A stretch of DNA of 64,000 nucleotides from Pyrocephalus nanus (lineage: Eukaryota; Chordata; Aves; Passeriformes; Tyrannidae): the NCBI GenBank assembly GCA_038380795.1, contig CM076262.1, positions 73,965,129-74,029,128 on the forward strand, read 5' to 3'. Positions 9,251 through 31,823 of the stretch are shown here, in pieces. The notes under the pieces were generated by a model, which did not search any database, was not told where the DNA came from, and saw nothing but the letters and a program-made list of their open reading frames with translations. How positions within the stretch are numbered: the stretch's first letter is position 1; every line of letters begins with the position of its first letter. A program made the translations under genes and the position numbers.

Positions 9251-10569
9251 AGCCTCTCTTAAGGTGGACTAGTTGGGGTGGATTTGGATGGACTGGTTTA
9301 GTTGATCTTTCAAAGTCTCTTTTTCTCCAATCCAGTTTTCATAAGGTTTATGATACCTGGATTTGACTCAAATCTATAGCTTCCCAAAGTTTAGGTTATA
9401 TTATATTCTAAACTCAAATGGGTTGAGGATGAAGAGATTCAAACTGGAAACATTAAATCCAAATTTGGATATGAGTTCCCCTAATTGGCTCATGCCTGGA
9501 ACTAGGTATACACACACACACGTTCACTTACTAAAACATTTAGAATTTGCATAGCTGAGGAATCAATAAACAAAAAATTCCTTCTCTGAAGTCAAATATA
9601 CAAAGATAAAGCTGCCTCAGAATAAACCTGTATTGAAGCAGATGCCTAACTCATAGCGACAATGCAATTTTTGTTTTTGTTTAAAGATAAATAAGCTTTT
9701 ATAACTGTGACGAGGTAACATTTAAAGTGGGGTTAAAACTTTTCCAGGTTATGTTAATTCTTAGAATATCTACAAAGAGAAAAAGTAAAGAATAAGCATT
9801 TTGCAATATTTTTTTCATGTGATACAGGATATAAGTCTTAACTCATTCTGAGATAAAAGAATTATTTTCATGCATTTCCAATGATTTCCATAAGCTATGG
9901 AGCATTGCTTAAATAAACTTGTGGCTATAAAATAAACTTTCTTTGCTTTTCTTTTTCCCCCTTCTTTACGTTTTGAGGTGAAAACACCATCTTTTTACCT
10001 CTTAATCGAAAGTATAGCAAAGGGATAGGAACAATGTACAAGTGGGTATTGTCTGCTGTTTGGTGTTGCTGCTTTGTGAATAGAGAACAGTGGTAGAAAT
10101 AGTTGTTCACTCTTTTTTTATTTTAAGAGTGGTATTTCTGCAGATACTGTAATTTGTGCAGGCAGAAAGAAACTGACTTCTTTTGCCTGGGTTTTTTGTT
10201 ATTGTTAATGATACATTGCCCTCCTTCCCACAGACATTCACGTAGCCGTGATGTGCAAGACAAAGGTTCATTCTCAGTTCTGCAGAAAAGATATGACTCA
10301 ACGTTTTGTAATTCCTTTTGAATTGATTTTATTTTTATAGAATCACCTCTCTAATCTGTAATGAAGAAAAATCATGTTGGCACAGAGGACTATTTGGCAT
10401 GTGTATTACTGAGAATTTCATTCCAAAAAGTTGATGAAACTCCTAAAGCTTCAGATAGGATAAAACATTTAAAACTGAGTAATGTACTGAAAAAAAATCT
10501 TTCGATGAGATGATTGCAAAGTCTTTGCCATCAGTTAATTTTTAAGTTTATGTGAGACCTTATTATTCA

Positions 10570-10587
10570 TTCCTTAACCTACTGCAC
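10570..10587 (+). other. U12-type branch point and AC 3' splice site
   Basis: TTCCTTAAC at 10570-10578 is a perfect U12 branch-point consensus. The intron ends in AC at 10586-10587, about 10 nt downstream, within the short distance typical of minor introns. There is no long polypyrimidine tract, also typical. Confidence 0.9.
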
Positions 10588-10732
10588 CTATTGTGCTAAG
10601 AACCACCAAGGGAAAGAAGATGAGTCTGATGTGTCTTGTAGGAAGCGGAAAGTGTTACATTTGGTATCTCCGTGGACTTCTCTCTACAAAGACTGGTTAC
10701 ATGAAGATGAGCATTTAAAACAATTTTTAAAG
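10588..10732 (+). CDS. RAPGEF5: RAPGEF5 exon (REM domain, middle)
   Basis: This 145-nt exon completes the split His codon and ends in phase 0 before a GT donor at 10733. It contains RKRKVLHLVS and LYKDWLHEDEH, characteristic of RAPGEF5. Several positions differ from the mammalian protein as I remember it. SPWTSLYKDW stands where SQWIALYKDW is expected, and HLKQFLK where HSKMFLK is expected. The changes cluster in a normally conserved helix, which hints at relaxed constraint. The frame is fully open. Confidence 0.88.
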
Positions 10733-12327
10733 GTATTGAAACACTTTCTGATGCACTTCAGCACTGTTTAATTACTTACTGTGTCTAAAAAGCCACAGCA
10801 GAAAACTCTATAAAACATATTTTTTCATACTTACGGTTTCTCTGTGAAACCTATAATATAAAATGATTTGTACGTGTCTTCCTTAAATGCCTTAAAGACA
10901 GTCAGTTTGAACAGAAAACCAGTATTATCAATACATTCAATGTCAAAAACATTAACATATGAAACTTATGGAAATCCCGTGATCTCTAGAAAATGGGAAA
11001 AGTTAGAAAGATAAAAAATAAAACTACAAAGATGTGGAGATTCCTTGGACACAGTGTCTCTCAGAACAGGATCTGTGGCTGGTATCCATGGACTAAGAGT
11101 TCTCAGGTCTCTGTAAGAGATGCTACTTTGACTGAGGAGTGAAATTGTATTCCACAGTGTTTTGCTGAATGCACGTGGGGAGCAGCACAAATTTATGTCT
11201 TTTAATAAATACAATTTTGTCCCTACTTGCTAGCAAAGATCTTCTGATATTTCTGCATGAATTCCAAAAGCTCTTGTAATTCCCCTGTAAATTTGGAAAT
11301 AGCCCATTGTTGCTGACCAACATCCACCTGGTTGTTGATCTTTTTTTAAATATATATTTTTTCCCCTGCTAGTTAAAGAGGAGAGTATTTTAGGAGACTT
11401 TGCAGATCTTCCACTTTTCCTGACGAGACTCTTTATATGCAGATGGCGATCTTCCTAAGGGCCGTGGAGGCGTGACTGTGCACCATCACACAATCTCTCT
11501 TCTTGAAGCTTCTGTGCAATATTAAACAGCAGTAACGTTAACAATGGTTGCAGTTATATGTGCAAGAACAACGTATAGGATTGTAGGCTAAAATCATTCA
11601 TGCAGAAACCTGTGAATGTCAGAGTGTTAATTGGGCCATAGCAAACCTGATGACTCAGCTCATACGTATTCCTCATTTTCTTAGAAGGGAAAGACAAGGA
11701 TCCGTGTGCAAATTCTGAAAAAGTGTAGAGAAAATACTTCCTACAGTTTCAATCATGACAATGCCTTCCCCCAAAATTAGAAGATAGGTTTATTTATCTA
11801 TTAGTTTATAACTAACAGAGTTCTGGGAGTTTGTGGAAGACATCAACTCAGTTTAAAATGTATGCAAATGTGAGGAAAGGTGACGTAGAACATTTTGCCA
11901 TTTTAAAAGTCTTAATTCAAGGAACCTGTTTGTTATCATTTTGAGTAAGTGAAGATGGTGTGGTGTGGTGTGTTGCTTCAGAATGTGTTCTTCTGACCTA
12001 ACCCAGATTTTGTATAACAGCCACAAATGGTGTTTTAAATTTTCCCATTTGTAGAGAAAAGAGGATAAACATTTTGGACTCTCACTTGGTGACAGTACTA
12101 AGAGTGTTTCTACAAAGACAAGCTGAATATTAACCAGTTGGAAGTTTAAACAGGAAGGTTCTCTCCTTATGGGTTTTGCAGAAATATAATGATGAAAGTT
12201 GTTTCAGTAGGCTAGTGCCTGAATTGATTTAGATTGCTGATGTGATGCCTTAGATTTATGTTTGAATTGTCAGACATTTGCACAATCTTTTTTGTTTTAT
12301 TTTGTTTCATTTTGTTTTATTTTGTAG

Positions 12328-12425
12328 GCAATATACAGAAATGTGTTAGATGATGTGTATGAATGTCCCATTCTTGAGAAGGACCTGAAAGAATTTCAGA
12401 AGATACTTGGGATGCATCGCCATCA
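12328..12425 (+). CDS. RAPGEF5: RAPGEF5 exon (REM domain, C-terminal part)
   Basis: A 98-nt exon between a T-rich acceptor (AG at 12326-12327) and a GTAAGT donor at 12426. It reads AIYRNVLDDVYECPILEKDL and then KEFQKILGMHRH, closely matching RAPGEF5. A Cys stands where Tyr is usual (VYEY). It ends in phase 2 (CA). Confidence 0.88.
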
Positions 12426-13197
12426 GTAAGTATTGGTTATATTTGTGATCAAGTCTCCTTTTATTTAGACTGTAATTTATTTTTGTCTCCATCTTGCTGT
12501 AATTCAGTCAAGTGAGGAGTGATACAAGTAACATATTCATTTTAACTAATCATCTCTTTTCTAAACTAAAACTAGATTATTCAGTTTTCCCTGATGTTTG
12601 TTGGGCTTCACTTTCATCAATTTTATTTGGGCTTACTCTCAAGAAAAGCAAATCTTTGTGGAGAAGCTGGCAAAAATTCCCTCAGAAGCTGCAGTCTGTG
12701 ACTTCAGATGGTACCTTTATTCTCATTCTCTCTGCAGTCGGCAGTACTGAGAAGCAAATATCTTTTAATAGTCATCTCAGGGTTATTATTTTACTAATCA
12801 TTATGGTATTTATAAAGGATATTTCCTTGCTAGGTTTTTACAACAAAGGAGTTGGTTTCCATGGTTGGGCCATGGAAGTGGAGGGAGCTGTGTCCTTGAG
12901 GGTGACCCTGACCACTTACTTTGGGGGCCTGAGCTGTGTTTGTCTCCTGCAACAGCTCATGGGCTGACAGCATTGCTTTTCACGACATCAATTGTTCAAG
13001 TCAAAAAAACCTTTCTGGCTGAGCCAGGTGCCTTTAATTTTTCCTGAAGGAGGTCTGCAGCCTTTCTGCAGTGACCATTTAGTGTTAAAAACTTTCTGAT
13101 GTTGTAAACTTTGTAGTAAACTTTGTAAAATAGCTAAAACTTCCTTTTCCTAAGCTTTGGCTGGAAAGAATAATTTGGATTTTCCTTTTTGTTTCAG

Positions 13198-13228
13198 CAC
13201 TGTAGATGAGTATTCACCTCATCGAAAG
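13198..13228 (+). CDS. RAPGEF5: RAPGEF5 micro-exon (31 nt)
   Basis: The acceptor is AG at 13196-13197 and the donor GTAATG starts at 13229. It completes a His codon and reads TVDEYSPHRK, matching the linker after the REM domain in RAPGEF5. Entry and exit phases agree with the exons on both sides. Confidence 0.85.
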
Positions 13229-14130
13229 GTAATGCCAACCTGATTGTTGCTGGTTGCTAGATAACTTACCATCTCACTTTCTTCCCCTTTGCCCACTTCC
13301 CTCTCTTCTTGGCTTCTTAACTGAAAGTGACTGGTGGCCAAAAACATGACAGGGCACATGAGCGAGGTTAGACCTGCAATGCTGCTTAAAGAACTTTTTT
13401 CCTGTCAGTGCATCCTGTATGTCAGCTGTGTGAGCTAACCTGCAGTGGCTGTGACAATACTAGCATCTTAACGAGATGCTTTGAGATGTCTAAATTCAGG
13501 GAGGCCCAGGAGTGTAAGCTGGAGAGATGGAGCAACCTGGGCAAACCAGTGTGAGCACAGGCACTGTCACATATCCATTGACGTGGATGTCAAGTAAACA
13601 GAGCAAGGGGCAGATTTGTTGTGAAAGGGACAGAGAAAAAGAGAGGAACGTGAATCTGTCCATTTAACTGAAGGAAGAAGATGCAACCAGAGTTGGTGTG
13701 CACACTTCTCAGAGGTGAATTGCTGTGCTCATCAGTTTTACCGTGCTGAGGCTGAAGTGTGTAATAAGCTTAAAATGTTACTGCAAAAATGTGGAAGGCA
13801 GAACATGAGATTGTAGTGAAATTGCTAAGTAGGCTGATTGGTACATGAGAAACGTATATAAGAGTAAGTGTACAAGAAACAGGCTTTGAACGTGACTACA
13901 GAAAATCTTGAATCATGCTGGCTGCTTAGCCTTAGCACATCCTGCTTCCTGCAAAATCTCCGCCTTGGTCATTATTTAGTAAGGCAACTCCCAGTTTACT
14001 GGTCTAAGAAAAGGTGAATAGATTTCCTATACAGGAACCTTTTGGCCAGACAAATGGGTTGAATGCTGTGATCTGTGAATTACTGCTTTGTAAAGGCCAA
14101 GGATGCAAAAAGTCACTGTTGTGGTTTTCT

Positions 14131-14228
14131 TTCTTTCTTTTCTTTCTTTTCTTTCTTTTCTTTCATTTCTTTCTTTGCTTTCTTTGCTTTCTTTGCTTTC
14201 TTTGCTTTCTTTGCTTTCTTTGCTTACT
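14131..14228 (+). repeat. TTTC / TTTCTTTGC microsatellite next to a splice acceptor
   Basis: A pyrimidine-rich tract begins as TTTC/TTTTC repeats and passes into about six 9-bp TTTCTTTGC units. It ends about 20 nt before the acceptor of the exon at 14250 and in effect forms an extended polypyrimidine tract. Its length probably varies between individuals. Confidence 0.9.
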
Positions 14229-14249
14229 TTCTTTCCCACTCCCTCACAG

Positions 14250-14328
14250 AATAAAACCTTTTTCCACCAGTTCAGTGTAAAGGAGAACTGGCTGCAGCAC
14301 AGAGGAACCGTGAATGAAACAGAAGAGA
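14250..14328 (+). CDS. RAPGEF5: RAPGEF5 exon (linker to RA domain), last one present
   Basis: A 79-nt exon with acceptor AG at 14248-14249 and a strong GTGAGT donor at 14329. It reads NKTFFHQFSVKENWLQHRG and then TVNETEE, the RAPGEF5 segment before the Ras-association domain. It ends in phase 1. The next expected exon, which starts the RA domain (FCHVYITEH in mammals from memory), is not found in the next 49 kb. The gene therefore looks broken in this sequence, although its donor is intact. Confidence 0.87.
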
Positions 14329-15069
14329 GTGAGTATAAATGAAAAAGTGGAGGAAAAACTCAAAAACAATGAAATTGTTTCTCAAGGGCCTCAATGTAAA
14401 TATTTTTAAACTGACATACGGCTTTTCTGCTGGACCTTAGGGACACAAAAGAAGAAGTATTATGGCTGTGTAAGTTTAACTTCCTGCCTCCTGCTTTGCA
14501 ATGGTTCAACAGTGCCATGGTATCTCAAAGGGGTTTTGCTCAGTCTGATTCCTCCAACAGCCCTGTTCCAGAGCTGTGTGCCTCCCAGGCTTGCTGGCAG
14601 CCCGTCCAGGCTGCCATTATTTCTGCTCCATTTCACGCTCTTGGTCCCTTGACCTATATCGTGGTTGTGAAAGGTGAATGTATAAGCCTGTCACGTGTAA
14701 TGGGCCAGGATCTACTAACTCTGGGAACGTGCCTTAGTTCCTTCTCTCCTTGAAAACATCTCCACTTGGAGTGCAAGGTGCCACTTCTTTGTGGCAAGGT
14801 TCCCCTTCTTTGTGGTGGTGCTGGGGTGGTCCAAGCCTTTTATTTTCAAGGAAGCTCCAAACTGGGTGGCAATCAGCTACTGAAGTATCTGTGTTGGGGG
14901 TTTTCCAAATGGTTGGTTACCCAGCGCCCTTGACATGGGTGTCCTGTGTTTCCACCCACCCCTTTAGACTCGCTTTTGGGAGACAGACAAACCCAGCAAG
15001 CATCAAGGGTGGGGGTGAAGGACAGGGAACGGCAGCTCTTGGCGAACGCTGTCCCCACTGTCCCCACAG
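14329..15069. other. junction between RAPGEF5 and FGF5 segments, AT-rich to GC-rich shift
   Basis: The first part continues the AT-rich RAPGEF5 intron. From about 14,480 the DNA becomes clearly richer in G and C and leads into the FGF5 acceptor. FGF5 exons 1 and 2 are not here. A breakpoint between two unrelated loci must lie within these 741 bp. No obvious repeat marks the exact position. Confidence 0.6.
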
Positions 15070-15411
15070 GCCCGGTTCCCAGCAGACTGCCATTTCCGGG
15101 AGCGCTTCCAGGAGAACAGCTACAACACCTACGCCTCAGCCGTGCACCGCAGCCCACGCTCGGGGTGCCAGTGGTACGTGGCCCTCAACAAGCGGGGCAA
15201 AGCCAAGAGGGGCTGCAGCCCCCGTGCCCGGCCCCAGCATGTCTCCACACACTTCCTGCCTCGCTTCTGGCAGCCGCAGCCCCCTGAGCTCACCTTCACC
15301 GTCGCCCTCCCAGAGAAGAAGCCCCCGCTGCCGAAGCCGAAGGTTGCCCCATCCCCACCTCGGAAGAACGCTGGCCCCATCAAGTACCGGCTGAAGTTCC
15401 GCTTTGGGTAG
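15070..15411 (+). CDS. FGF5: FGF5 terminal exon (C-terminal half), exons 1-2 absent
   Basis: FGF5 is a secreted fibroblast growth factor that signals through FGF receptors and limits hair growth in mammals. This exon follows a CCCCACAG acceptor (AG at 15068-15069) and runs in phase 0 to a TAG at 15409-15411, giving 113 residues. It contains [41 protein letters not shown] and the C-terminus KYRLKFRFG. Together these are specific to FGF5 among FGFs. The tail between them is Pro-rich and has diverged from the mammalian protein as I remember it, for example [10 protein letters not shown] where HRTEKTGREW is expected. Third codon positions are very GC-rich. Exons 1 and 2, with the signal peptide and the first half of the beta-trefoil, are not in the 15 kb upstream, where RAPGEF5 exons lie instead. 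As it stands this piece alone cannot make FGF5. Confidence 0.87.
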
Positions 15412-16944: not shown

Positions 16945-19720
16945 GGGCAGGTGTTTGGATCTGGATCACGACAAGGTACAGGTGAGGATTTGGATCGCAG
17001 CAGGGTCAGGTGAATACGGGCCTTGTACCCCTGGTCACTTCCAGCCAGACAGCCTGACTGCGGATGTACGAAATGCAAATGCTGCTGCTGCTGCTGCTGG
17101 GCCATTCAGCAGGTGGGCACCATCAGGTATAACTAGTGCTCAGGTCACCTCAGTGAACTAACGGAATGAAAATTTTGCAGGTGCCATCCTCAGCACCACC
17201 CAGGCAGGTGCCTGGAGTTCTCTGGGCAGGTAAGAGAGAAGGGAACGTGCTGGACACTTGCTACTGCTGCCTCCCCTCAGAGGCAAAAGGTATTGTTTTA
17301 ATTTTTTTTTTTTTAATAGAAAATTCTTACGGATAACTATGACCATAAAAAAAAAAAAAAAAAAAAAAAAAAGAGTAGAGCTTTACTGTTAGAATAGTAA
17401 TTAAAACATCGCTGTGTTGCAGCAAAGAGGTCTGTACCAGGCAGAGAGCAGCCCCAGCAAAGAGATTAGGGTCAGGAACCCAACAAACACACCCTGTTCC
17501 TTTTGAGCACCCTTCGGCAAGAGAATTCACTAGGTTTGCTTATCAGGAGGGGACTGAAGGCCTTACAATACGGTAAATGTTTCTGTTAAATTTAAAACCT
17601 TCCAGTGGACAACTTGAGGAGCTTGTAAGGAATAAAGCTAACTTGTTCAGGGTGCTTCTTGCATTTCAAAAGTGATTTCCCTGGTGGCTTACTCTTATTT
17701 ACAAGTGCTGATTGCATTTAAGCCTTCCTGACTCCTGTTTTTGCTTTGTGGCACTGGCCAGCCCCTGCCCTGAGTAGGACAGGGAGCCCCGAGCCTCCTG
17801 ATCCCTGCTCCCTGGGCAAGCGTCCCCTCCTGCCCTTGGGCAGGCTGGTAGGAGCAGTGCTGCTGCAGAAGCAATGGGAGGGGGGGTCTGCTCTGTGTTG
17901 TGACTTTGAGGGAGGCAGAACTTCTGTGATGGCCCAGAAAGAAGGCTCCAGCTTTGCAGCTCTGAGTGTGCCATAAATCATCCTGTCAGCCACTCCTGTT
18001 TCCAGTGAATAAATCCCAGTGGATTTATCCTCTTGGCTTCAAGCACTGGGGCACTAATTGCTGGACTGTTAAGCAGACTTCTCTACTTATTTTGCGTAAA
18101 AGCTCTTGGTCTTGTCTTTACATCTTGCTGTATCCAGAGGGAAAACCTGCTGGGAAAACGAACAGAGACAGGGGCTCTCCTGCCTCTCTTTTTGGGGAGC
18201 TGAGGGCAGCGGGCCATGCTAGGGAAGGGGCTCTGCATTTGGGGACGTGGGGAGGTCTGGCTGCTGGCAGCAAGCAAGGGGGTGGGGCTGGCTGGGGGGC
18301 CTGTGTGTGGGACCAGTGGCCTCTCTGGGGGACAGAATCCTGGAGCAGGCAGAGCAGCACTGGGATGAGCTGAGTGGTGGGTGGACTCCCGAGAGCCAGG
18401 ATGCAAGAGGATAACACAGGTCTGTGAAGTTCTCTGCCCCAGGACACCAGCGTGGTGCCTCTGAGCTCTTTGTCAGCAGGGCTAAAAAGGGCACAATTAC
18501 TCCCTGTGGACCGATAGGCCAAAGTCGTCTTTCTTCTCTCTCATTCCCATTCTGACTCCTCTTTTCCTGCAGTCTTGCCTGTGGCTTAGGCAGAGCACGA
18601 GGGGGTCGCTGGAACCTCAGCTCACACTACGATGGGAGCAGCATTGGAAAAAACCTCCGAGGCTCCCGTGAGGCCCGGACACCGTGTTTGCTCTGCAGAG
18701 CTGGTGTTGGAGCCCAGCCGGGAGCCTTCAGGCTGTGCTGCCCAGGCTGCAGTGATGGGGTGCTCCCCTGGGAGTAACCCCAAACTGAGTTGAGCAGCCG
18801 AGGGGTAGCCGTGCCTTAGTGTGAGGAGCTGCACGTTGTGAGGGGTTGGAAGGCATGCTGGGATTTTTTGGGGGCTTTTTCTTGCTTTTCTCGTCTCCGT
18901 TTTGACCAGTGTGGTGCTGGGGAAAAAAAGCTAGAAAGAAAACCAGTTGAAGGGAACTGTCACCTTCAGAGGAGGCGCAAATCCTCCTGGAGCTGAGGAA
19001 GGGGATGAGGGGAGTCCAGCATAGTGCGGTGAGCTGCCACTTGCCCCCAAGGCCCTTCTTTTGGAGGCATTTGTTGACTTTCTGAAATAAAAAAAGCGCC
19101 TCCCTATCATCTTGTTTGCAACCCTAACAGCCACCCCTGCAGGTATGTGTCATGTTCCAGACCCCCAGAGGGATTTGTGTATGTCCTGTGCTGGTGGATG
19201 CAGGACATCCTTTAGCAGAAGGGAGAGGATTTGGGGAGGAGCTGTCAAGCTTGGGTGCGTCAGAAACCCCCCTTTGCCCCCCACCTGTGTGCACCCCCAG
19301 ATATCCTTTCTCCTCTCTTTTCTCCACCCCTTTCCTCCTCTCCTCTTCTTGACCCCTGTTTTCCCTCTGCCTTGAACTCCCCATCTTGTACCCACCCTCC
19401 CTCTCTTTATTTCTGCCTTTGGGGGTGAGTAAAAAGGGGTGGGGGAGTCCAGGGGTGAGGAGGTCATCAGGGGCATCCCGATGCCCAGCAGGTGAGTGGG
19501 GGATGAGAGGGGTCATAGGGAGTCCTCCCCGAAAAGGGAGGCTAAGCCCAAAAATGCCTGAAAATTTAAAGGTTACCATCTCTCTTTTTTTCTATCTATT
19601 GAAATGCTAACTGACATATACATTGACTTCAAAAGAGAGCTCCGTCTCTACTTTATTATATCCAGGATCTTGTAGTGTAAGAAATGCAGGATACAGAAGG
19701 AGGGGGGGCTTTGAAGGCAG
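16945..19720. other. Block A, 5' portion with no recognisable gene
   Basis: Moderately GC-rich DNA, repeated at 41348 and 58015. It holds a short CTG run (about 17080-17098) and a 26-A homopolymer at 17347-17372 (25 in the other two copies). Splice-like words occur, for example CAG|GTATGT near 19,141 and CAG|GTGAGT near 19,492, but no convincing exon pair was found. Open frames are short and overlap in several frames. Confidence 0.5.
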
Positions 19721-20160
19721 GACGAATGAAGCTCCAAGGCGCGTGCCAGTGCGAGGACGGCAGGCAGAGCTCTGGGTCGTGGCTTTGCCGGCCGCTCTCC
19801 CTTTCCCCAGGGGGCTCTCGAGGATCGCTGCTGCCGCCTGCGGGCGGCGCGCGGTACTGCAGGGAAAGCCGCGCGGCGAGCCGGATGCAGCCCCGTGGAA
19901 CTGCGCTGCTGCAGCGAGTCTGGCCAGGCGCCCGTTCCCTGGCGGCATGTCCGGCTGGCGCCGGCAGCAAGGGAAGGGCCGGCGGGCCGGGGCTTTGGCC
20001 AGATTATGGTACTTTTGCCCCGCTTATCCTGCCGTGAGTCGCTTTGAGTGGGACATGCCCCCTTTGAGCTTTCCCCGGAGCCTGTGCCATTACGGTCAGC
20101 ACGGGGGAACGAGGAAAAGCCAAATATGCCTTAACGTTCTCTGCCCCGCAGGACGCCGTG

Positions 20161-20492
20161 ACCGGAAACTCTCGAGCCACACTAAAGATGGCGATGCCCT
20201 CACCGGAAGTCGTCACAGCCCACACTGAAGATGGCACCGCCCTACCGGAAGTCCTCCAGCCTACAAATAAGATGGCGGCGCCCTGACCGGAAGTCCTCCA
20301 GCCTACAAATAAGATGGCGGCGCCCTGACCGGAAGTCCTCCAGCCTACAATCAAGATGGCGACGCCCTGACCGGAAGTTCTCCAGCCTACAAATAAGATG
20401 GCGCCGCCCTACCGGAAGTCCTCCAGACTACAAATAAGATGGCGGCGCCCTACCGGAAGTCCTCCAGCCTACAAGCAAGATGGCGCCGCTCT
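20161..20492 (+). promoter_or_regulatory. ETS-YY1 minisatellite, eight units (A1)
   Basis: Eight tandem units start at 20161, 20202, 20244, 20286, 20328, 20370, 20411 and 20452 (period 41-42 bp). Every unit carries an ETS/GABP core (CCGGAA, usually CCGGAAGT). A YY1-type core follows about 25 bp later (AAGATGGC, best form AAGATGGCGGC). Between them lies a CTCCAGCCTACAA-type spacer. ETS and YY1 sites in this orientation are standard elements of TATA-less promoters. Substitutions fall mostly outside the two cores. The near-constant spacing of about four helical turns would place factors on one face of the DNA. Confidence 0.85.
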
Positions 20493-20765
20493 ACCGGCAC
20501 GCCGTCTCCCCCCCCGCCGGGGCTGCCGGCACGCCGTTTCCCCCCCCCCCCCGCCGGGGCCGCCGGAACGCCGTCCCCACCCCCCGCCGGGGCCGCCGGC
20601 ACGCCGTCCCCACCCCCCGCCGGGGCCGCCGGGGCCGGAGCTGCCGCCGCAGCCGCCACGCCCCCCTGGCCCGCTCCACCCCGCCCCCCTGGCCCGCCCC
20701 ACCCCGCCCCCCTGGCCCGCGCCACCCCGCCCCCCTGGCCCGCCCCGCCCCAACCCCCTGCCCAG
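20493..20765. repeat. GC-rich minisatellites with runs of C (A1)
   Basis: About four irregular units of roughly 33-40 bp built on ACGCCGTCCCC, a C run and GCCGGGGCCGCCGG occupy 20493-20645. About four 22-24 bp units built on CACCCCGCCCCCCTGGCCCG follow (about 20650-20765). The C run near 20531 varies in length between A copies. The minus strand has many G-runs able to form G-quadruplexes. The C-rich units include Sp/KLF-type GC boxes. Confidence 0.8.
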
Positions 20766-20806
20766 CCCCCCTGTTCCCTCCCCGTCCCCGCCCAGCTTGG
20801 TGCTCT

Positions 20807-20906
20807 GATGGGGCTGGGCTGCGCCGCCGGAATCCTCTTTCCTTCTCCAGGAAGCTGCACGTGGCTCAGCCACGAGGACGACCGAGCGAGCGGCCGTTTC
20901 ATTTCG
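20807..20906 (+). promoter_or_regulatory. E-box module 1 and putative first exon with strong donor (A1)
   Basis: A module of about 65 bp (20807-20871) ends in CTGCACGTGGCT, with a CACGTG E-box at 20858-20863. It is followed by a consensus 5' splice site, TTTCG|GTGAGTG, with GT at 20907. A diverged second copy of the module lies at 21130-21194. If the CpG island is a promoter, this is the best candidate for the end of exon 1 (E1). One frame is open from 20809 to the donor and would pass to E2 in phase, but it has no ATG. Confidence 0.45.
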
Positions 20907-21045
20907 GTGAGTGCGGGGGACTCCGCTTGGCTCTCTTCCATATCCCATCCCGCTCCGCTGCCGCTTCTTCGTCCCGTCCCGTCCCCCCCCAGCGTCCCGG
21001 TCCGCTCTGCTCCTTCCCCTCCCTGTGCCGCTGCCGTGCCACCCC

Positions 21046-21100
21046 GTCCCGTCCCGTCCCGTCCCGTCTCGTCTCGTCTCGTCTCGTCTCGTCCCGTCCC
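21046..21100. repeat. GTCCC/GTCTC pentanucleotide array, 11 units (A1)
   Basis: Four GTCCC, five GTCTC and two GTCCC units. A2 has the same array (45451-45505). A3 has twelve units (62113-62172) and lacks 5 bp just before it, so block length is unchanged. Confidence 0.9.
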
Positions 21101-21129
21101 CACGCCCCTGGGTCTTGCGGTGCCGGGGT

Positions 21130-21194
21130 GATGGGCCGGGGCTGCGCCGCCGGAAGCCTCCCTCCTTCCCCGGAAGCTGCACGTGGCTTAAGCC
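21130..21194 (+). promoter_or_regulatory. E-box module 2 (diverged copy of module 1)
   Basis: This repeats module 1 with about ten changes but keeps the CGCCGCCGGAA word and GCTGCACGTGGCT (E-box at 21180-21185). Both E-boxes are conserved in all three A copies (module 2 again near 45535 and 62202). USF or MYC/MAX-type factors bind such sites. Confidence 0.5.
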
Positions 21195-21308
21195 TTTTTG
21201 TCTCTGCCGCGGCCAGCGGAGACACGGCCATAGCGCCGATCCGCGCTCGGGGAGCACTGGAGGGGCTGGTGGGGAGCGGCGGCCCGGCTGCAGTGCCGCT
21301 CCCGGCCG

Positions 21309-21327
21309 TGTCCGCCAGGCGGCGCCT
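21309..21327 (+). promoter_or_regulatory. CTCF-like motif (A1)
   Basis: TGTCCGCCAGGCGGCGCCT resembles the CTCF core CCASYAGRKGGCR with two mismatches. The word and about 40 bp around it are shared with block B, although the rest of A and B differ here. Same motif at 45714-45732 (A2) and 62381-62399 (A3). Confidence 0.35.
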
Positions 21328-21638
21328 GCGAGGCAGGGGGCAGCTCGTCTCGGCACTGCTTCTGGTCCGGACAGGGCTCGGGACACCTCGCAGCTCTGCT
21401 TTGGGCTTGGGGGGTTATTTCTCTTGGCTTTTAAGGCAGAGGGTTGTTTGGCACGTCACTCTTGCTGCTTGCAATTCTTTCTTTTTCTGGTAGTGAATAC
21501 ATTTGAGAAGCCGTGGGGTTCTAGGATTCAGTTGTTCTAAATAAGGTGATTGTCTTAGTGAGCAATTGGAGTCGTTCTCCAGTGCGGAGTGCAGAAGGAT
21601 TTTTCTGTCAGCTAATTGTTTCCTAATTTCTTTTCAAG

Positions 21639-21763
21639 CTCTCCTACGAACCTTGCACCAGTGGGCTTAGCCGCACTTGCCGTGGGGGCTGAAGTGAGAA
21701 GCAGCTGGGGGTGTTTGCTCTCTGCTCGGTCCCCGCCTTGCCCTCAGTTCCCTGGCCCTGCAG
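21639..21763 (+). other. coding-like exon E2 (A1)
   Basis: A 125-nt segment between a strong acceptor (TTTCTTTTCAAG, AG at 21637-21638) and a CAG|GTAATC donor. One frame is open throughout and reads SPTNLAPVGLAALAVGAEV, then a Ser/Pro/Cys-rich stretch ending PQFPGPA. It leaves in phase 1, which matches the entry phase of E3. The protein is not recognised. The copies at 46044 and 62711 have the same open frame. Confidence 0.4.
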
Positions 21764-22876
21764 GTAATCACAGCTCACCTTGGCTTTTCCAGGGCCCTTG
21801 CTGAAGGGTTTCCAAGTGTGGCCCTCAGAATTTCTGCAGGTGGAATGGATGGCTGTTTCAGAGCACTTGTCACTGGGCCACCTGTGTTTTAACACTTGCC
21901 AAGGCAGGAGAATTGCAGCAAGAGAAGGGTAATTATTCCTCTGAAGTTGTAAGCGAGTGCAGGAGAAATGCTAGGAAGGCACCTGGATATGTATTTAGGT
22001 ACCTGAGTAGCTTTGGCTGGTAGAAACACTCCATGGATGAGACAGAAAGGGCTGGTGCTGGAGCATGTTTAAGAAGTCAGCATAGGGAGCTTCAGTCTTC
22101 TAAAATTAGACAAAGCAGTGAAGGATGATGATGGAGTAGAACAAGTTGGTGTTTTCAGCTTTGGGACTTGACTTGCTCATGGGAACAATCTGAATAAGGG
22201 ATGTTCTTGCTGAGAATTCCCCCTGGTAGATCTTCCCCATCTAGGGTTGTATCACGGACAGTGTTTCCAATAGGCTGGAGATAAAGTTGTGAATCTTAGA
22301 TTTGCAATGCTTTGGAGCTTGGATGTTTTGTGAAGTAGGAGAAATTGTGACTTTGGAAAGTGACTGAGCTAGGCTCTATACATATAGCTCAAATCTTAGG
22401 TTAAGAACACCCACAAATGAAAAAAATAGCAAAGGGCTTAGATTTGCACAGAAAGGAAAGCAAAGCTGAAATGTGCTGCAGAGCTGTCCAGAGGCTGGGC
22501 AAGGAATTTCTGTGGCTTTGGGGTTTGAAATAGGAAGTAATGGGAGTGGCAGAGAATAATTGTCTTTTGTTATTGCTTTGGAAGCATTCACAGCTACACC
22601 GGTCTGCTCCAAGGCCTGATGATGCAGGTGGCTGATGCAATCCTAAATAAAAGCACATAGAATGAAGCTAAATCTGAGCAGTTTCATTTAATCCAGTCCC
22701 AGTGGGGAGAAAATGAAAGAGGAGGGAAACTTGGGGAGTTTGGTAATTTTAATCTGAGCACTGCTGATTCTTGTGCTGGAGAGAGTTTAGTGACACATGA
22801 GGTCCTTGAGAGAATTCTTGGCTTATTGGTTCAATGAGAGGCCTCGAGCAGCTGTTAAAAAATGTTTTCTCTTCAG

Positions 22877-22960
22877 TTCAGTTTCAGAGTTCTGTGATCC
22901 CGGCCTCATCTCGTCCACCTCACTTGGACTCCCCGGAGGAAAAGGCAGAAGAGAGTTACA
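22877..22960 (+). other. coding-like exon E3 (A1)
   Basis: An 84-nt segment between TTTTCTCTTCAG and a consensus GTAAGA donor. In the frame set by E2 it reads QFQSSVI and then PASSRPPHLDSPEEKAEESY, a hydrophilic and protein-like sequence. It enters and leaves in phase 1. Alternative AGs at 22881 and 22887 would shorten it. No family is recognised. Confidence 0.45.
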
Positions 22961-23367
22961 GTAAGAATAAAAAATGCAGTCACCTGGGATTTCAAGGTTT
23001 TGCACATGTGCTTTTTTTCTTGCTAAGGGGAAACCACTTCTTTATCTTAGATTGATATCATGAGGAATATTTACTGACACTGGTAGGATTGAAAGCTTTC
23101 CATAGATCCCATTACCGGGCCAGAGTAGAATTGGGCATTTTGCAATTCCTTGAAAAATATGTCACAACACAGTTCAGGCTTTGTGTTTTGCTTCAGGGAA
23201 TTTTTTCCTGATTCGTGCCTTGTATTTTTTTTATTTTTTTTATTTTTTTTTAACGTTCAGTACTTTTCATCTTCTTCACTTTTCTCTTGAAATTGTACAT
23301 CTACTCATCTTTTCACTTGTGAGGTCTCCCACAACATTCTCACAAGTGTCTTGGAAATCTGTTGCAG

Positions 23368-23510
23368 AATTTGTGCAAACCCGGCCAGACTCTCCACTCA
23401 CAGAGCGTGGTTTTCAGCCATCTGCGACTGAATTGGAATTAGCTGGGTTTTGCAGGGAGACTCTCCAGAGGTCTACGTCTTCGTTGGGACTGCTACTGAC
23501 TGAGCAAAAG
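23368..23510 (+). other. coding-like exon E4 (A1)
   Basis: A 143-nt segment from a CTGTTGCAG acceptor to an AAAAG|GTATGC donor. In phase with E3 it reads KFVQTR, then PDSPLTERGFQPSATELELA, then GFCRETLQRSTSSLGLLLTEQK. It leaves in phase 0, matching E5 in block C. The homologous part of block C has a 20-nt deletion before the donor, which breaks this frame, so the A version is the better preserved. An alternative acceptor lies at CACAAG (23346). Confidence 0.45.
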
Positions 23511-24044
23511 GTATGCCTGTTATTCTTGACAGCAGCATGCAGCTGAGAAGAGCACAGCCGTCCGTTTGTAGCCACACACACACACACACAGACAGAAAAA
23601 AGGCAGGAAAAATTAGAAGAAACAGTCTAAAAATCAAACGCTACTGTTCAGACAGATGTATGCATTGCAGTTGGAATTCCTCGAGCACATAAAGAAAGGT
23701 TCAGGTAGGACTAAGTAGGAAATCATGTTTTGTCGTCGTTGGGTTTACTTTTGGGGTTTGTTTCTTTTTTGTTTTGAGTTTTGTGTGGTTTTGGTTGGTT
23801 GGTTTAGTTTTGGGGTTTTTTTCTTTGTTTATCTGATTGCTTTTGTTTGTCTTTTGCTGTTGTTTTTTTTGTGTGTGGTGTGGGTTTTTTTGTTTTTCAT
23901 GTTCACAGTTCGAGGGGAATTAAAATCAGGAACCATGCAAACCATGACAAAGGGGTCCAGAGGAGAGCATAAGAATAATTCTCTTTGCCTGTCTCTTTTA
24001 TAATTCTCTTTGCCTGCCTTTTTTCTAATTCTTAAGGCAGAGTA

Positions 24045-24240
24045 ATGAAGTTTCTTTAGCCTATAGAACAAAGAGGAAGGTTTAGGAGGGGATGTTAAGA
24101 ACTTTCAAATATTTAAAAGACTTTTTTCTGGCTGAAAAACCAATCCGATTCTCAAGTGCCTGTAGTGCTTATGTCAAGAGGCATGAACCAAGGGGTAAAG
24201 CTTCAGGAGAGGTGCAGATTAAAGCTTCATTCTGGGAGAG
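24045..24240 (+). mobile_element. diverged CR1-like segment in block A1
   Basis: Words in CR1 3'-region order: TTTAGCCTATAGAACAAAGAGG, with a variant of GGATGTTAAGAA and AAATATTTAAAAG, then AACCAAGGGGTAAAG. The similarity is faint and judged from memory. The segment is repeated at about 48450 and, diverged, in block C (about 40015 and 56693). Confidence 0.4.
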
Positions 24241-24795
24241 TACAGCAATAGAAATGCCCAACTCTCTGCATACAACCATAATCTTTTCTCCTCCAAAGGC
24301 CCCTTTTTGGTAAGAGAGTGTGAATGTGGCTATCATCAAGACTGTTTGTGTAGACTTCCACACAACGTGGTCCACACTTTTCAGCAGTTGTTTTCCATAT
24401 GTTTATATGTTCAGCTTTTCTGTGGGGGGATGTCATCACTTCCATCATATGCTTGAGGACAGTTTTTTTCCAGAAATGATTATATGTAGCATGGTGCTGG
24501 GGAGGGGTTGGGGGGGGGGGAAGTAATCACTAAAATCTGTGCTTTCTCTCAGTGAAACTAAGAAATTTCAGACCTTGCTTGCTGAAGATTGTGTAGAGCT
24601 TTGTTTCATACCTTTCTTGAAAAATACGTCTTTTTGCAGCTCGTAACTCTAAAACCTGGTGATACTAAACCCCGTGTTCTTGGCAGCTTTCATCCATATG
24701 TGAGGCTTTTTCTCTGTCAAATATAAGCATTCATTTTCAAGGAAAGATAGCCAATTACTGTGTCCACACATCAGGCACTGACTTAGAGTCTTCAG

Positions 24796-24859
24796 ATATC
24801 TACATATATCTATATATCTACATATCTATATCTCTGTATACATATACGTGTATATCTAC
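24796..24859. repeat. imperfect AT-rich TATC/TACATA microsatellite (A1)
   Basis: About 64 bp of interrupted ATATCTACATAT-type repeats, also in A2 near 49,201. The surrounding 24,530-25,430 region of block A is unique to A and shows no convincing exon. Confidence 0.7.
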
Positions 24860-27800
24860 AGTCTCTGCCCTTTTCCATCCTGAGTTCAGTTCTCTTCTGT
24901 CACCTCTTTTCATCCTCAGCCTTGCAGTTCCACTTCCCTACTGGTTTATGTTCCCTGAGGCCCTTTTAGCTTTCTGCTACCCTTTTTTCGTGGCTTTTTC
25001 CGTACAGTGACCCTTTAGAGTGGCCTGCCAGGGTTCAGATGGGTGGCTTTTCAAGCTCTTAGTTGTACTGCTTGATAATCTATGAGTTCACCTCACAAAC
25101 TAGAAAAATCTCACCTGCAGTCATTTCCTGGCTCTTGGAAAAGTAATTGGAGAGAAGGGAATGATTAGACTGAGTCAGCATTTCAGGTAGGCAACATGTT
25201 GGTGTAGAGGATTTTTGACTATAGCTCTGTTTTGGTTTTGAATATGCCTGTGGCATCTTCTAGGAGGCAGAGAAAAGATTGAATTGTGCTGGTTGTTGAA
25301 GCAAAATGGGAGTTTGAGACTGTTCAGGGGTTTGGAAGCATTCCAATTTCTGCACCGATGAAATCCCCAATGTCTTTAGGAAACCAGTCCTGGAGGATGA
25401 GCCTAAGCAGTGTTTGTTTGTTTTGTTTGGTTTTTTTTTTTTTTCCTTCCCCCCCCCCCCCCTTTGGCCTTTAGCAGAAAAATCGTTTTTTTGTATCTAA
25501 TCTAGTTTTATTTTTGTCTAATGACAGTATGGCTAATATTTATTTACTGCTCTCTCTCTGCAGAAAATTTTAATCCTCTTTAATGACAGAACAAATTCAA
25601 TGTTGCTCATTTGAAACTATGTTTCGTTAAAGTGGTTTGTGTCTTGTGAATCTTCAGATTAGTGTTTCACCGTTGTCTCTTTACGGAGAGTTTGTGCAAA
25701 AAATGCTCGGGTTTGAGAGAAAAATGGAACCTTTTAAGAACAGACTTAAGAAAGTTTGTGTGCCATTTGCACTTGGAAACTTGGTGGTAGAACTTGTTCA
25801 GGTTGGCTGTGTTGCATACAACCCGTGTGGATGTTTGCTGGTCTCGTGAGAGCAGTTTGTGATGAAAAGCGTGTGAGGTGCCTGTCCATGGCACTACGCA
25901 GTGGAGTTTGGTTTTTTTCTTTTTCTGTCCGTTCTCAGTTTAATCTCAGATCACTTAGTTTACTTACATAGTCCTTAAAATCATTGGGTTAGGCACTGCC
26001 AGTCGAGATAGGCTGTTTGGGTTTGTGTGAGAGCTGCTGAGAGATGTGGAAAGGGGGCGGGAGTTGATTTGCTTGCAAGTTGCTTGTTGGTGGCAGTTGA
26101 GATTTTAGAAGGAGGTTAGTTATTATTGTTGCCACATTGGCAGGGGAGAATTATTTTGGGATTGATTGCCGCTTAGCTTTCTAAGCTTCCTCATGCCTGG
26201 AAAGTTTGATTTAATGCCCAAACCTCTCGCTGTGTGCCTGGTCCAGAGGGGACTGATGAAGAGGAGTTGCTCAGAGCTAATCTACGGTAGGCATATCAAG
26301 AGAAGTTTCGCAGCAGCAGTCACTAAAGGAAAACAAAGCAGTTATTAGAACACATGTAGTATGTCACAAATAATTCTGTTGAAGAGATTCATATCACTTC
26401 TTGTTAAGATTTTTGCTGTATATCTGCAGTATGAAGTGTATTGCAACCTGTAGGAATTGTTTTAGCTTCTGGAAAATAGCAAATCCCATCATCACTTGCT
26501 CTTACAGGTTTTAAGAATTTCTACCTTGCGGGATAGTGCAACTAATATTTTAAGTTCTGTGAGTGCTTTGTGAGTGGCACTCCCGCGCAATTATCAAGGG
26601 CAACTTCTCCATTTTTGTCTCCAGTCCCTACTTAGAAAATGAATAGAGAAGTCACTATCACACTTTGCTAACACAGCTTGAAAGCCAGTGTCCTCTGAGA
26701 CAAGTCAGTCCAAGTTGTCTCTGACGTCTGGGATGTCTTATCTGCTTCTTGTAGTTGTTTTTTACCTTTCATAAAAAGCTTGTAAATTTGTCATGAATGG
26801 TTTAGTCAATTTTAGGTGGTGATCATGGTAGAAAGAGATCTTAGAATCAGGTAATTTTGCAGTTTTTCTCGAAGCTGAAGGCCTGATGATTCTTTGCAGT
26901 GTAATAACAAGGGAACTTAAGCAGATGACTTTAAGAATTTAACACCTCTAAACAACGTTTAGCGACTTTCAGCTATAGCAATTCAAACAAAGCTGCGGGG
27001 GAACTGCTGAAAAGATAGGACAAAATCTTCAAAGCTTCAGTGTTCTTTAGGGAAGATTCTCGAGACCACAGACACAACATTAGAAATCTTTAACCTTAAA
27101 AACAATAACACAAGGGAGTTAGAAACTTTTAAAACGTATTAAAAAGGCGTTTTTGACAGCTCCTTTTCCTATCAACAGTTTATAAACACACAGTTAAAGA
27201 CAGGTTTTACAGGGAAAAGCATTTCAAGGAGGCCTTGTTTATTACAATTTTTCTCAAGTGGATTTCATGTTTTCTGGAGGATATGTGTTTGCCTAGTTTG
27301 GCAAAATCAGACTCATCCCAGGCTTCGGGCTACGTGGCTTGTTTCTTGTTGTGAAAAGTAGAACCCTTTCCATTTCTTCCACCCAGTTACTAAGTAATAG
27401 TTTACATTTGAATGGCTGTGTGGCTGGAGCCAAGCAGCTCCTGCCCGGTAACCAGATAACCCTTTGTTTAATCTCTTAGGTCTTATCTCTCTCCCCACAG
27501 AGGTGGAACTTTCAGCCCCAAAAGGCTTTTTCTTCTCTTTTCCCGGTTAAAAATTGCTTTCGCCGAACAAGGCATCTTGAAACTAGGGCATTGTAGTAAA
27601 TTATTCTCCCCAAGAATCTACCCAGTAATTTTTTTTTTTTTTTTTTAAAGATTTGTCTGACAGCAGCATGCAGCTGAGAAGAGCACAGCCGTCCCTTTGT
27701 AGCTACACACACACACACACACACACAAAAAAAAGGCAGGAAAAATTAGAAGAAACAGTCTAAAACTCAAAGGCTACTGTTCAGACGGACGTATACATTG

Positions 27801-27892
27801 CAGTTGGAATTCCTCGAGCACATAAGCAAAGGTTCAGGTTGGACTAAGTAGGAAATCATGTTTTGTCGTCGCTGAGTTTACTTTTGGGGTTT

Positions 27893-28070
27893 GTGGAGCT
27901 GGCCCGGGGGGCGCGGGGGGTCCTTTGCAGGCGGCGGCGCTGTCGGGGCTGCAGTACCGGCCATGTCCACCAGGCGGAGACTGCGGGGCAGGCACTGCGG
28001 GACAGGGCCCGGGGTGGGGAGGGGGCGCCGCGGGTGGGACCCCCTGCGGGGGGGGGGGGAATATGGTGCC
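27893..28070. promoter_or_regulatory. small CpG island with CTCF-like motif (B copy a)
   Basis: A GC- and CpG-rich patch in otherwise AT-rich DNA. It contains GCAGTACCGGCC and TGTCCACCAGGCGGAGACT (27964-27982), the counterpart of the block A motif, and ends in a G run of variable length. Equivalent patches are near 31755-31930, 35617-35795 and 52297-52470. Confidence 0.45.
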
Positions 28071-28217
28071 CCTGAAATGGGGGCCTCTGCTGGGCTATTG
28101 CACTGCCACCCCTCGTGTTTGGGGATAAAGCCTCGGGGGAGCCATGGGAACAGCAGGGTGAGAGCCAGGAGCCTTTGACTTCCAGAAAGCACTGAGTTTC
28201 CCTCTGCTCTCTTTCAG

Positions 28218-28430
28218 GACAGGACAATGTATTGAAGTGGGAGCAGTTCTGCCAATTCTTTGGGCTGTGAGCAGCCACAGGCAAGAGGCTCCAGCCTTAC
28301 TAATGCCCCAGAGAGCATCACTGAAATCAGCATTACTGGCCTGGCCTGTGCCAGTTGTTCACCCAACAAAATTGCAAAGCCAGTGTTGCTTCTGTTTTAA
28401 GAACTGAAAATAACTTTAAAGCCAAATAAA
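28218..28430 (+). other. terminal-exon-like segment with poly(A) signal (B copy a)
   Basis: A strong acceptor (CTCTGCTCTCTTTCAG, AG at 28216-28217) is followed by a frame entered in phase 1 that reads QDNVLKWEQFCQFFGL and stops at TGA 28268-28270. AATAAA lies at 28425-28430. Acceptor, short coding tail, stop and poly(A) signal within about 210 bp are what a last exon looks like. Another frame is open longer, to a TGA just before the signal, so the true frame is unsure. Confidence 0.35.
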
Positions 28431-31400
28431 TCACCATTTCCGTCTTCTTGTTTCCTTTTAGATGGTGGAATTGCCAGTCTGTCCGTGAGCTGAGCTGCGG
28501 CTGCAGGGGACTGTCAGGCCTTGTTGGCTGTGAGTTCGTGTTCTTCTGCCTGGGAAACTGGAAATCATTCTCAGTTAGGTCGCAGAACTGTTTTCTGAAG
28601 CCTGTCCTCTGCCTTTGGCTGATAGATCTCCTCTTTCTGCCTTGGGATTTGCAGCTGTTCCCCCCCTGGAGAAGGTCAGGTGAGAGACCCTGAGGGCAAA
28701 GGGACCTCCCTGTGTCCCCAGGGACCTCCAGGGGACAGAATGGACACTCTGGGGTCATATCTGTGTGTTAGTATGTAGGGGAGAGAATGAACATTTTGGG
28801 GTTAAAATGGGGCAATCAGTAGTGGACAGGTGGGGAAAATCTTGGACCTAAGTCTGGAGGTTGTCTGTAGAGGACAGGAAATATTTTGGAGGGAGATTTG
28901 TTGTTCCCTTGTGCTGCACTCTGTACTCGGTCCTGGGTCAGCTCCAGAAATTTCCTGGGCAGCTCCAAAAATGATCTCTGAAAAGTGGGAAAATCCCGCT
29001 GGCAAAATGCAGAGGAACAGGTATTCTGAACCTCTCCTGCCTCTCAGCAGAGCTAAACTTTTTGTATTGAGTAAGGACTTGGAATATGCGTCCGCAAGCG
29101 TAAACTACCATGGTGTCATAAATTCCCTTGTTGGAAGAACTAAACTCTTAAAGAAAGCACTTAAAGAAAAATGTTGGGTGGAGTGAGTGATTTACCTACA
29201 CAAAAGGACTCGCTGGCAGACTTTTATTTCCTTTCCTTCTTCTGAGAAACAGGGGACAGTTTGTTTTTGTTTTTTTTTTGTTTGTTTGTTTTTTTTTTTT
29301 TTTTTTTCCTTCCCCCCCCCCCCCTTTGGCCTTTAGCAGAAAAATCGTTTTTTTGTATCTAATCTAGTTTTATTTTTGTCTAATGACAGTATGGCTAATA
29401 TTTATTTACTGCTCTCTCTCTGCAGAAAATTTTAATCCTCTTTAATGACAGAACAAATTCAATGTTGCTCATTTGAAACTATGTTTCGTTAAAGTGGTTT
29501 GTGTCTTGTGAATCTTCAGATTAGTGTTTCACCGTTGTCTCTTTACGGAGAGTTTGTGCAAAAAATGCTCGGGTTTGAGAGAAAAATGGAACCTTTTAAG
29601 AACAGACTTAAGAAAGTTTGTGTGCCATTTGCACTTGGAAACTTGGTGGTAGAACTTGTTCAGGTTGGCTGTGTTGCATACAACCCGTGTGGATGTTTGC
29701 TGGTCTCGTGAGAGCAGTTTGTGATGAAAAGCGTGTGAGGTGCCTGTCCATGGCACTACGCAGTGGAGTTTGGTTTTTTTCTTTTTCTGTCCGTTCTCAG
29801 TTTAATCTCAGATCACTTAGTTTACTTACATAGTCCTTAAAATCATTGGGTTAGGCACTGCCAGTCGAGATAGGCTGTTTGGGTTTGTGTGAGAGCTGCT
29901 GAGAGATGTGGAAAGGGGGCGGGAGTTGATTTGCTTGCAAGTTGCTTGTTGGTGGCAGTTGAGATTTTAGAAGGAGGTTAGTTATTATTGTTGCCACATT
30001 GGCAGGGGAGAATTATTTTGGGATTGATTGCTGCTTAGCTTTCTAAGCTTCCTCATGCCTGGAAAGTTTGATTTAATGCCCAAACCTCTCGCTGTGTGCC
30101 TGGTCCAGAGGGGACTGATGAAGAGGAGTTGCTCAGAGCTAATCTACGGTAGGCATATCAAGAGAAGTTTCGCAGCAGCAGTCACTAAAGGAAAACAAAG
30201 CAGTTATTAGAACACATGTAGTATGTCACAAATAATTCTGTTGAAGAGATTCATATCACTTCTTGTTAAGATTTTTGCTGTATATCTGCAGTATGAAGTG
30301 TATTGCAACCTGTAGGAATTGTTTTAGCTTCTGGAAAATAGCAAATCCCATCATCACTTGCTCTTACAGGTTTTAAGAATTTCTACCTTGCGGGATAGTG
30401 CAACTAATATTTTAAGTTCTGTGAGTGCTTTGTGAGTGGCACTCCCGCGCAATTATCAAGGGCAACTTCTCCATTTTTGTCTCCAGTCCCTACTTAGAAA
30501 ATGAATAGAGAAGTCACTATCACACTTTGCTAACACAGCTTGAAAGCCAGTGTCCTCTGAGACAAGTCAGTCCAAGTTGTCTCTGACGTCTGGGATGTCT
30601 TATCTGCTTCTTGTAGTTGTTTTTTACCTTTCATAAAAAGCTTGTAAATTTGTCATGAATGGTTTAGTCAATTTTAGGTGGTGATCATGGTAGAAAGAGA
30701 TCTTAGAATCAGGTAATTTTGCAGTTTTTCTCGAAGCTGAAGGCCTGATGATTCTTTGCAGTGTAATAACAAGGGAACTTAAGCAGATGACTTTAAGAAT
30801 TTAACACCTCTAAACAACGTTTAGCGACTTTCAGCTATAGCAATTCAAACAAAGCTGCGGGGGAACTGCTGAAAAGATAGGACAAAATCTTCAAAGCTTC
30901 AGTGTTCTTTAGGGAAGATTCTCGAGACCACAGACACAACATTAGAAATCTTTAACCTTAAAAACAATAACACAAGGGAGTTAGAAACTTTTAAAACGTA
31001 TTAAAAAGGCGTTTTTGACAGCTCCTTTTCCTATCAACAGTTTATAAACACACAGTTAAAGACAGGTTTTACAGGGAAAAGCATTTCAAGGAGGCCTTGT
31101 TTATTACAATTTTTCTCAAGTGGATTTCATGTTTTCTGGAGGATATGTGTTTGCCTAGTTTGGCAAAATCAGACTCATCCCAGGCTTCGGGCTACGTGGC
31201 TTGTTTCTTGTTGTGAAAAGTAGAACCCTTTCCATTTCTTCCACCCAGTTACTAAGTAATAGTTTACATTTGAATGGCTGTGTGGCTGGAGCCAAGCAGC
31301 TCCTGCCCGGTAACCAGATAACCCTTTGTTTAATCTCTTAGGTCTTATCTCTCTCCCCACAGAGGTGGAACTTTCAGCCCCAAAAGGCTTTTTCTTCTCT

Positions 31401-31823
31401 TTTCCCGGTTAAAAATTGCTTTCGCCGAACAAGGCATCTTGAAACTAGGGCATTGTAGTAAATTATTCTCCCCAAGAATCTACCCAGTAATTTTTTTTTT
31501 TTTTTTTTAAAGATTTGTCTGACAGCAGCATGCAGCTGAGAAGAGCACAGCCGTCCCTTTGTAGCTACACACACACACACACACACAAAAAAAAGGCAGG
31601 AAAAATTAGAAGAAACAGTCTAAAACTCAAAGGCTACTGTTCAGACGGACGTATACATTGCAGTTGGAATTCCTCGAGCACATAAGCAAAGGTTCAGGTT
31701 GGACTAAGTAGGAAATCATGTTTTGTCGTCGCTGAGTTTACTTTTGGGGTTTGTGGAGCTGGCCCGGGGGGCGCGGGGGGTCCTTTGCAGGCGGCGGCGC
31801 TGTCGGGGCTGCAGTACCGGCCA

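Follow-up and report, generated by a model that had tools for sequence, protein, structure and literature searches.

Organization of the locus

The window analysed here, by which we mean the whole 64-kb stretch of DNA (64,000 nucleotides), opens with a left flank that carries fragments of two genes and continues as a tandem array of large superunits. Each superunit holds, within a CpG island, one copy of a minisatellite whose short units pair an ETS-type core with a YY1-type core. The principal features are as follows.

8543..14329, + strand: RAPGEF5 exons of the left flank, at 8543, 10589, 12328, 13199 and 14247, some with splice sites lost
15070..15411, + strand: FGF5 exon 3 of the left flank, its acceptor, frame and stop codon all intact
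16945..41347, + strand: first superunit, 24,403 bp
19501..21750, no strand assigned: CpG island holding the minisatellite (CpG o/e 0.80-0.94 in 500-bp windows; 0.61 in the last window, 21251-21750)
20162..20493, + strand: ETS-YY1 minisatellite, first copy, eight units of 41-42 bp (TRF, motif counts and unit alignment)
25413..39231, + strand: internal 3.86-kb tandem repeats of the first superunit, ~3.6 copies
41348..58014, + strand: second superunit, 16,667 bp, with two internal 3.86-kb repeats fewer
44564..44895, + strand: minisatellite, second copy, identical to the first
58015..64000, + strand: third superunit, partial at the window end
61231..61562, + strand: minisatellite, third copy, identical to the first

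The superunits, two whole and one partial, are 99.7-99.8% alike over their longest stretches; like the units of a macrosatellite, they are kilobases long, nearly identical and arranged in tandem. In the second superunit the 3.86-kb repeats occupy 49818-55896 (~1.6 copies), and an older duplication lies around the 3.86-kb block, its two sides (23392-24388 and 39307-40354) being 82-86% alike in three pieces. An AGAT repeat differs in length between the near-identical superunits, with 15.8 copies at 41118-41180 and 13.5 at 57796-57849. The left flank also contains a perfect 47-bp tandem repeat in four copies (2464-2651). Rfam models at gathering scores gave 0 matches in the window.

Structure and divergence of the minisatellite

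The original prediction placed an eight-unit array of paired ETS and YY1 cores at this site, and the array is indeed there. Its units begin with CCGGAA at 20162, 20203, 20245, 20287, 20329, 20371, 20412 and 20453, giving spacings of 41, 42, 42, 42, 42, 41 and 41 bp in the first array, and each CCGGAA is followed 23-25 bp to its 3' side by AAGATGGC (8/8 units, all on the + strand). The TRF call, with a period of 42, 7.5 copies and 89% matches, agrees. ACCGGAAGT is present in 7/8 units of the array; across the 64-kb window it occurs 21 times, every time on the + strand and inside the arrays. The further proposal that the block recurs in every superunit was confirmed for 3/3 superunit copies within the window, in which a 351-bp stretch round the array is identical at 351/351 bases.

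Within the array, units 3-8 are 88-100% alike, with no difference at all between units 3 and 4, while units 1-2 have an identity of 71-81% to units 3-8, which amounts to a difference of 19-29%. Because units 1-2 have diverged this far from units 3-8 while the array copies match one another, the minisatellite probably long predates the most recent homogenisation of the superunits. Three CpGs are kept in every unit (8/8), which would be the expected residue of long hypomethylation in the germline. A CpG lies inside the CCGG of every unit and inside ATGGCG in 7/8 units.

Motif enrichment and core conservation

Both motifs greatly exceed expectation in the window: we counted 29 occurrences of CCGGAAG against 4.5 expected and 24 of AAGATGGC against 3.0 expected, and neither count was reached in any of 100 shuffles. 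All of the AAGATGGC occurrences (24/24) and most of those of CCGGAAG (21/29) lie inside the three arrays; because these arrays are copies of one another, the independent counts are only 8 and 7, respectively. Joint occurrence of CCGGAAG and AAGATGG was seen in 9 of 40,000 dinucleotide shuffles of the unit consensus.

We then compared core and spacer columns of the unit alignment. With the cores set to CCGGAA and AAGATGGC, which were named after the sequence had been seen, 14/14 core columns were invariant against 11/29 elsewhere (Fisher p 5.7e-5). Because these cores were chosen post hoc, the comparison was repeated with the textbook cores GGAA and ATGGC, for which 9/9 columns were invariant against 16/34 (p 0.0036). 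At full consensus length (8 for ETS and 11 for YY1), the corresponding figures were 14/19 and 11/24 (p 0.06). When u3 alone was taken to represent u3-u8, so that only three lineages (u1, u2 and u3) were compared, 14/14 columns stayed invariant in the originally predicted cores against 12/29 elsewhere (p 1e-4), and two invariant runs of such length arose in 1806 of 100,000 column shuffles. The proposal that the cores vary less than the spacer thus stands for the post hoc and textbook cores and weakens for full-length motifs; with motif length fixed beforehand, core conservation provides only moderate evidence. A count of substitutions across array copies has no power here, because the copies are identical.

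The CpG island and possible signals for transcription

The island that surrounds the array is ~2.2 kb long, and superunit windows on either side of it have CpG o/e values of 0.04-0.50. Several further elements were mapped within it.

20494..20632, + strand: 33-bp GC-rich tandem repeat directly 3' of the array (TRF)
20659..20769, + strand: 23-bp tandem repeat with Sp1-type boxes (TRF and motif scan)
20907..20912, + strand: candidate splice donor GTGAGT, weak (donor scoring)
21043..21100, + strand: CCCGT tandem repeat, with 11.6, 11.6 and 12.6 copies in the three superunits

The Sp1-type boxes are at 20679, 20702, 20725, 20742 and 20743, the last two overlapping, and two more CCGGAAG motifs lie in the island at 21150 and 21170. 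Three further GC-rich tandem repeats in the island start within ~600 bp of the array, none of them with AAGATGGC, which marks the island as a repeat-prone place. The GTGAGT candidate is one of 21 donors as good or better on the + strand of the superunit, and with a comparable donor in 85/300 shuffles of 20493-21750 it is not unusual.

The original prediction also held that the array could act as a strong promoter, and for a promoter role there is indirect support. The ETS and YY1 sites stand in promoter order and orientation in 8/8 units, as judged by core; the array sits in a CpG island; its cores are kept across diverged units; and no TATAAAW was found on the + strand from 14334 to 39845. 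In 8/8 units the + strand carries the YY1 core as ATGGC, which on our reading agrees with the YY1 strand bias of OXPHOS promoters, if the 'negative strand' of that study (PMC2268925) is equated with ATGGC on the + strand. The Sp1-type boxes are the exception: all five matches in 1-41348 are downstream of the array and none upstream. Upstream Sp1 sites are not required of every TATA-less ETS/YY1 promoter.

The strand asymmetry of the superunit was considered separately. An excess of G over C and of T over A is a usual sign of germline transcription in vertebrates. On the + strand of 21751-29280, with simple repeats masked, GC skew was +0.11 (95% 0.05-0.17) and TA skew +0.06 (0.01-0.12); the RAPGEF5-FGF5 flank, with its + strand exons, has the same skew signs (+0.06 and +0.03). 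A G skew does not set in at the candidate promoter: before the island the GC skew already stands at +0.10, and directly past the array, still within the island, it is -0.01 when masked (-0.25 unmasked, 20001-21000). The skew upstream of the island may represent read-through from the preceding unit, or may have another cause. Donor-like sites in unique parts numbered 14 on the + strand and 4 on the - strand; the + count was reached by 18/200 shuffles and the difference between strands by 13/200.

Coding potential of the superunit

We scanned 379 open frames for Pfam families. Of these, 288 were drawn from the 419 frames found on both strands of 1-41348, each of the 288 being at least 47 aa long, and the other 91 were short + strand frames (26-46 aa) taken from 16945-19600, 21500-29280 and 39000-41348. 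Low-complexity frames were removed before frames were counted. The 131/419 frames left out of the main set were frames of 40-47 aa and copies from the 3.86-kb repeats, some of the short + strand ones being among the 91. No Pfam family that we place within the superunit reached E<1e-3 among the 379 frames, a scan that covered short exons only on the + strand and outside 19600-21500. The only families below that threshold were FGF (E 9.7e-16) and RasGEF_N (E 3.1e-6); as we place both in the left flank, outside the superunit, a non-coding product is favoured.

An exon search of the superunit with simple splice matrices yielded no coding exon recognised by eye, and of 4105 candidates compared with a - strand frame that runs across the array (20007-20408), none was a protein relative at E ≤ 0.1. 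Two specific candidates were rejected. A transposon or LINE with a monomeric promoter was set aside, since the 379 frames contained no reverse transcriptase or endonuclease family at E 0.05; HINT1, as expected of a W-linked HINTW amplicon, gave no tblastn match at E 10 with a HINT1 sequence as the query.

The left flank and chromosomal origin

The RAPGEF5 exons lie in order on one strand and have 74-93% identity to the human protein, the exon at 13199 being a weak match that was placed by order and splice sites. They are relics: the first exon is not followed by a GT donor, and the second is not preceded by an AG acceptor. The RasGEF_N frame is probably that at 8501-8686, for which the PDB offered nothing beyond a weak RAPGEF4 match (E 0.11).

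FGF5 exon 3 is intact and songbird-like. The FGF frame was confirmed at 15019-15408. The exon is 91% identical to FGF5 of great tit and silvereye over 90% of the query, 88-89% identical to that of other named birds, among them Passer, Pluvianellus and Pterocles, and 71-72% identical to that of ducks; the best matches reach 92%, and owls also reach 92% but over 60% of the query. An H (in DCHFRE) and a W (in RFWQ) occur together in four songbird rows of the alignment (Zosterops, Parus, Malurus and Passer) and in three further rows, and the combination is absent from the other named birds in that alignment. The exon departs from 24/24 aligned rows at two positions that are conserved in the rest (T replaced by P and R by C).

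The RAPGEF5 relics are followed, 740 bp on and on the same strand, by FGF5 exon 3, and together they form fused fragments of two genes. In birds RAPGEF5 and FGF5 are on different chromosomes. The flank is a mosaic of fragments of standard-chromosome genes, as a germline-restricted chromosome would contain, and such a mosaic alone is not specific to that chromosome. Gene-fragment mosaics fit descriptions of the songbird germline-restricted chromosome (PMC6884545, PMC10387091); the flank could also derive from a segmental duplication elsewhere. No report of RAPGEF5 together with the germline-restricted chromosome was found in the open-licence literature, and neither FGF5 nor RAPGEF5 is mentioned anywhere in the main texts of PMC10172847, PMC10387091 and PMC6884545. 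A W chromosome is a less likely source, because bird W chromosomes are described as more than 55% transposable elements (PMC8310711) and no transposon family was seen among the frames scanned, a search that decayed elements would escape.

We consider it doubtful that the window belongs to a songbird germline-restricted chromosome whose tandem array units carry an eightfold ETS-YY1 promoter. If it did, the array would give that chromosome its own strong promoter and would form a germline-only, self-amplified transcription hub making non-coding RNA, and this hub may draw YY1 and GABPA off ordinary chromosomes.

A candidate promoter and its alternatives

With a probability of roughly 55%, we read the array as a TATA-less CpG-island promoter core that forms part of every 17-24 kb unit of a macrosatellite-like array, is gated by methylation and drives + strand RNA. 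Each 41-42 bp unit, all of them in a single orientation, would be a small ETS plus YY1 core promoter. A unit spans 3.9-4.0 helical turns, so that the ETS sites share approximately one face of the DNA and the YY1 sites another. With the CpGs of CCGG and ATGGCG unmethylated, the sites would be bound by YY1 and by ETS-family factors of the GABPA type; YY1 would then fix initiation on the + strand, and adjacent units would reinforce each other, like the YY1-bearing monomers of mouse L1 Tf. The product would most likely be a non-coding, perhaps spliced, + strand RNA.

The main rival is neutral expansion within an ordinary CpG-island promoter, whereby one ETS plus YY1 core was multiplied by slippage or unequal exchange in a GC-rich, repeat-prone setting, a single unit would suffice and the copy number has no role. 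This is possible, if tentative. The tandem repeats that begin close by suit such an expansion, as do the likeness of units 3-8 and the identity of units 3 and 4, which resemble the outcome of recent local duplication, and the moderate level of core conservation once motif length is preset; units 1-2, however, retain both cores and the three CpGs in spite of their divergence from the rest. The array is also unchanged in the three superunits while two neighbouring repeats vary slightly in length, a weak point against neutrality because 351 bp at ~0.1-0.3% divergence would show few or no changes anyway.

Two further alternatives concern what the array does. It could be the promoter of a protein-coding ampliconic gene with unrecognised exons, an account that overlaps with the promoter reading favoured here and differs in the product. 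Promoters of the ETS/YY1 class serve housekeeping genes, for example those of OXPHOS (PMC2268925), and the candidate donor closes an exon-like frame (20851-20906), but the scan of 379 frames returned only the FGF and RasGEF_N of the left flank and the - strand frame across the array lacks a protein relative at E 0.1; we judge a coding gene unlikely. The original prediction also allowed for a chromatin boundary or a factor sink, in which the array would be a DXZ4-like hub whose YY1 sites organise or titrate and do not initiate. DXZ4, FIRRE and ICCE are X-linked repeats described as having hypomethylated CpGs and paired CTCF and YY1 (PMC6985041), and weak CTCF-like sites (13/15) lie on either side of the array in the island, at 19830 (-) and 21312 (+). 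The window nevertheless contains no CTCF-like site of at least 14/15, and the seven 13/15 sites of the superunit, three of which are one site in the internal repeats, compare with 0-6 in 15 shuffles. Whether the array could serve as a sink would depend on its copy number in the genome. A boundary or sink role seems quite improbable to us.

Comparison with known systems

Titles and abstract beginnings in the open-licence literature yielded no description of an ETS-YY1 minisatellite promoter. Were the array to act as one, a 42-bp ETS plus YY1 unit present eightfold in each unit of a bird array would constitute a natural titration series for promoter strength against site number.

In the promoters surveyed in PMC2268925, ETS and YY1 sites are common where a TATA box is lacking, and Sp1 sites lie upstream of the start. 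The array resembles TATA-less promoters of the OXPHOS type in having both factors, the YY1 strand bias and no TATA box (PMC2268925); it differs in that the pair is eightfold in tandem and the Sp1-type boxes are 3' of the array. Peg3 and Xist are described as having high-affinity GCCGCCATTTTG-type YY1 sites, clustered at Xist and bound if unmethylated (PMC11602158), a likeness from which the bird array departs in providing an ETS partner for YY1.

In the 5'UTR of mouse LINE-1 Tf, too, promoter monomers stand in tandem, and every monomer has a YY1 site (PMC11602158). According to that source, the tandem monomers synergise via YY1, and CpG methylation in the YY1 site cut binding at least 8-fold (PMC11602158). 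A CpG within the YY1 site is common to both systems, and the methylation-sensitive binding of YY1 reported for Tf is predicted for the array. Unit 5 carries the exact reverse complement of the 12-nt L1 Tf YY1 site GTCGCCATCTTG (PMC11602158), and the other units match it at 9-11/12; outside the arrays the window holds 29 sites at 9/12, 3 at 10 and 1 at 11. Unlike the Tf monomer, the 41-42 bp bird unit adds an ETS site, and no reverse-transcriptase or transposon family accompanies it among the frames scanned.

DXZ4, FIRRE and ICCE offer a second parallel, that of a big tandem array with a CpG-rich promoter element bearing a YY1 site (PMC6985041). There, as in the internal promoter element of the DXZ4 macrosatellite, YY1 is paired with CTCF (PMC6985041), whereas in the bird array it is paired with ETS; the bird pair is eightfold in each unit, and the unit measures 17-24 kb against ~3 kb. 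The array is assigned to neither L1 Tf nor DXZ4, because no LINE sequence was found among the frames scanned and no CTCF-like site of at least 14/15 in the window. Tandem YY1 promoters in mouse L1 (PMC11602158) and YY1 promoter elements in mammalian X-linked macrosatellites (PMC6985041) are known already, and to judge from its sequence the array is a plausible candidate promoter in which such familiar parts are newly arranged. By analogy, L1 Tf would be its closest working counterpart and DXZ4 the closest in architecture.
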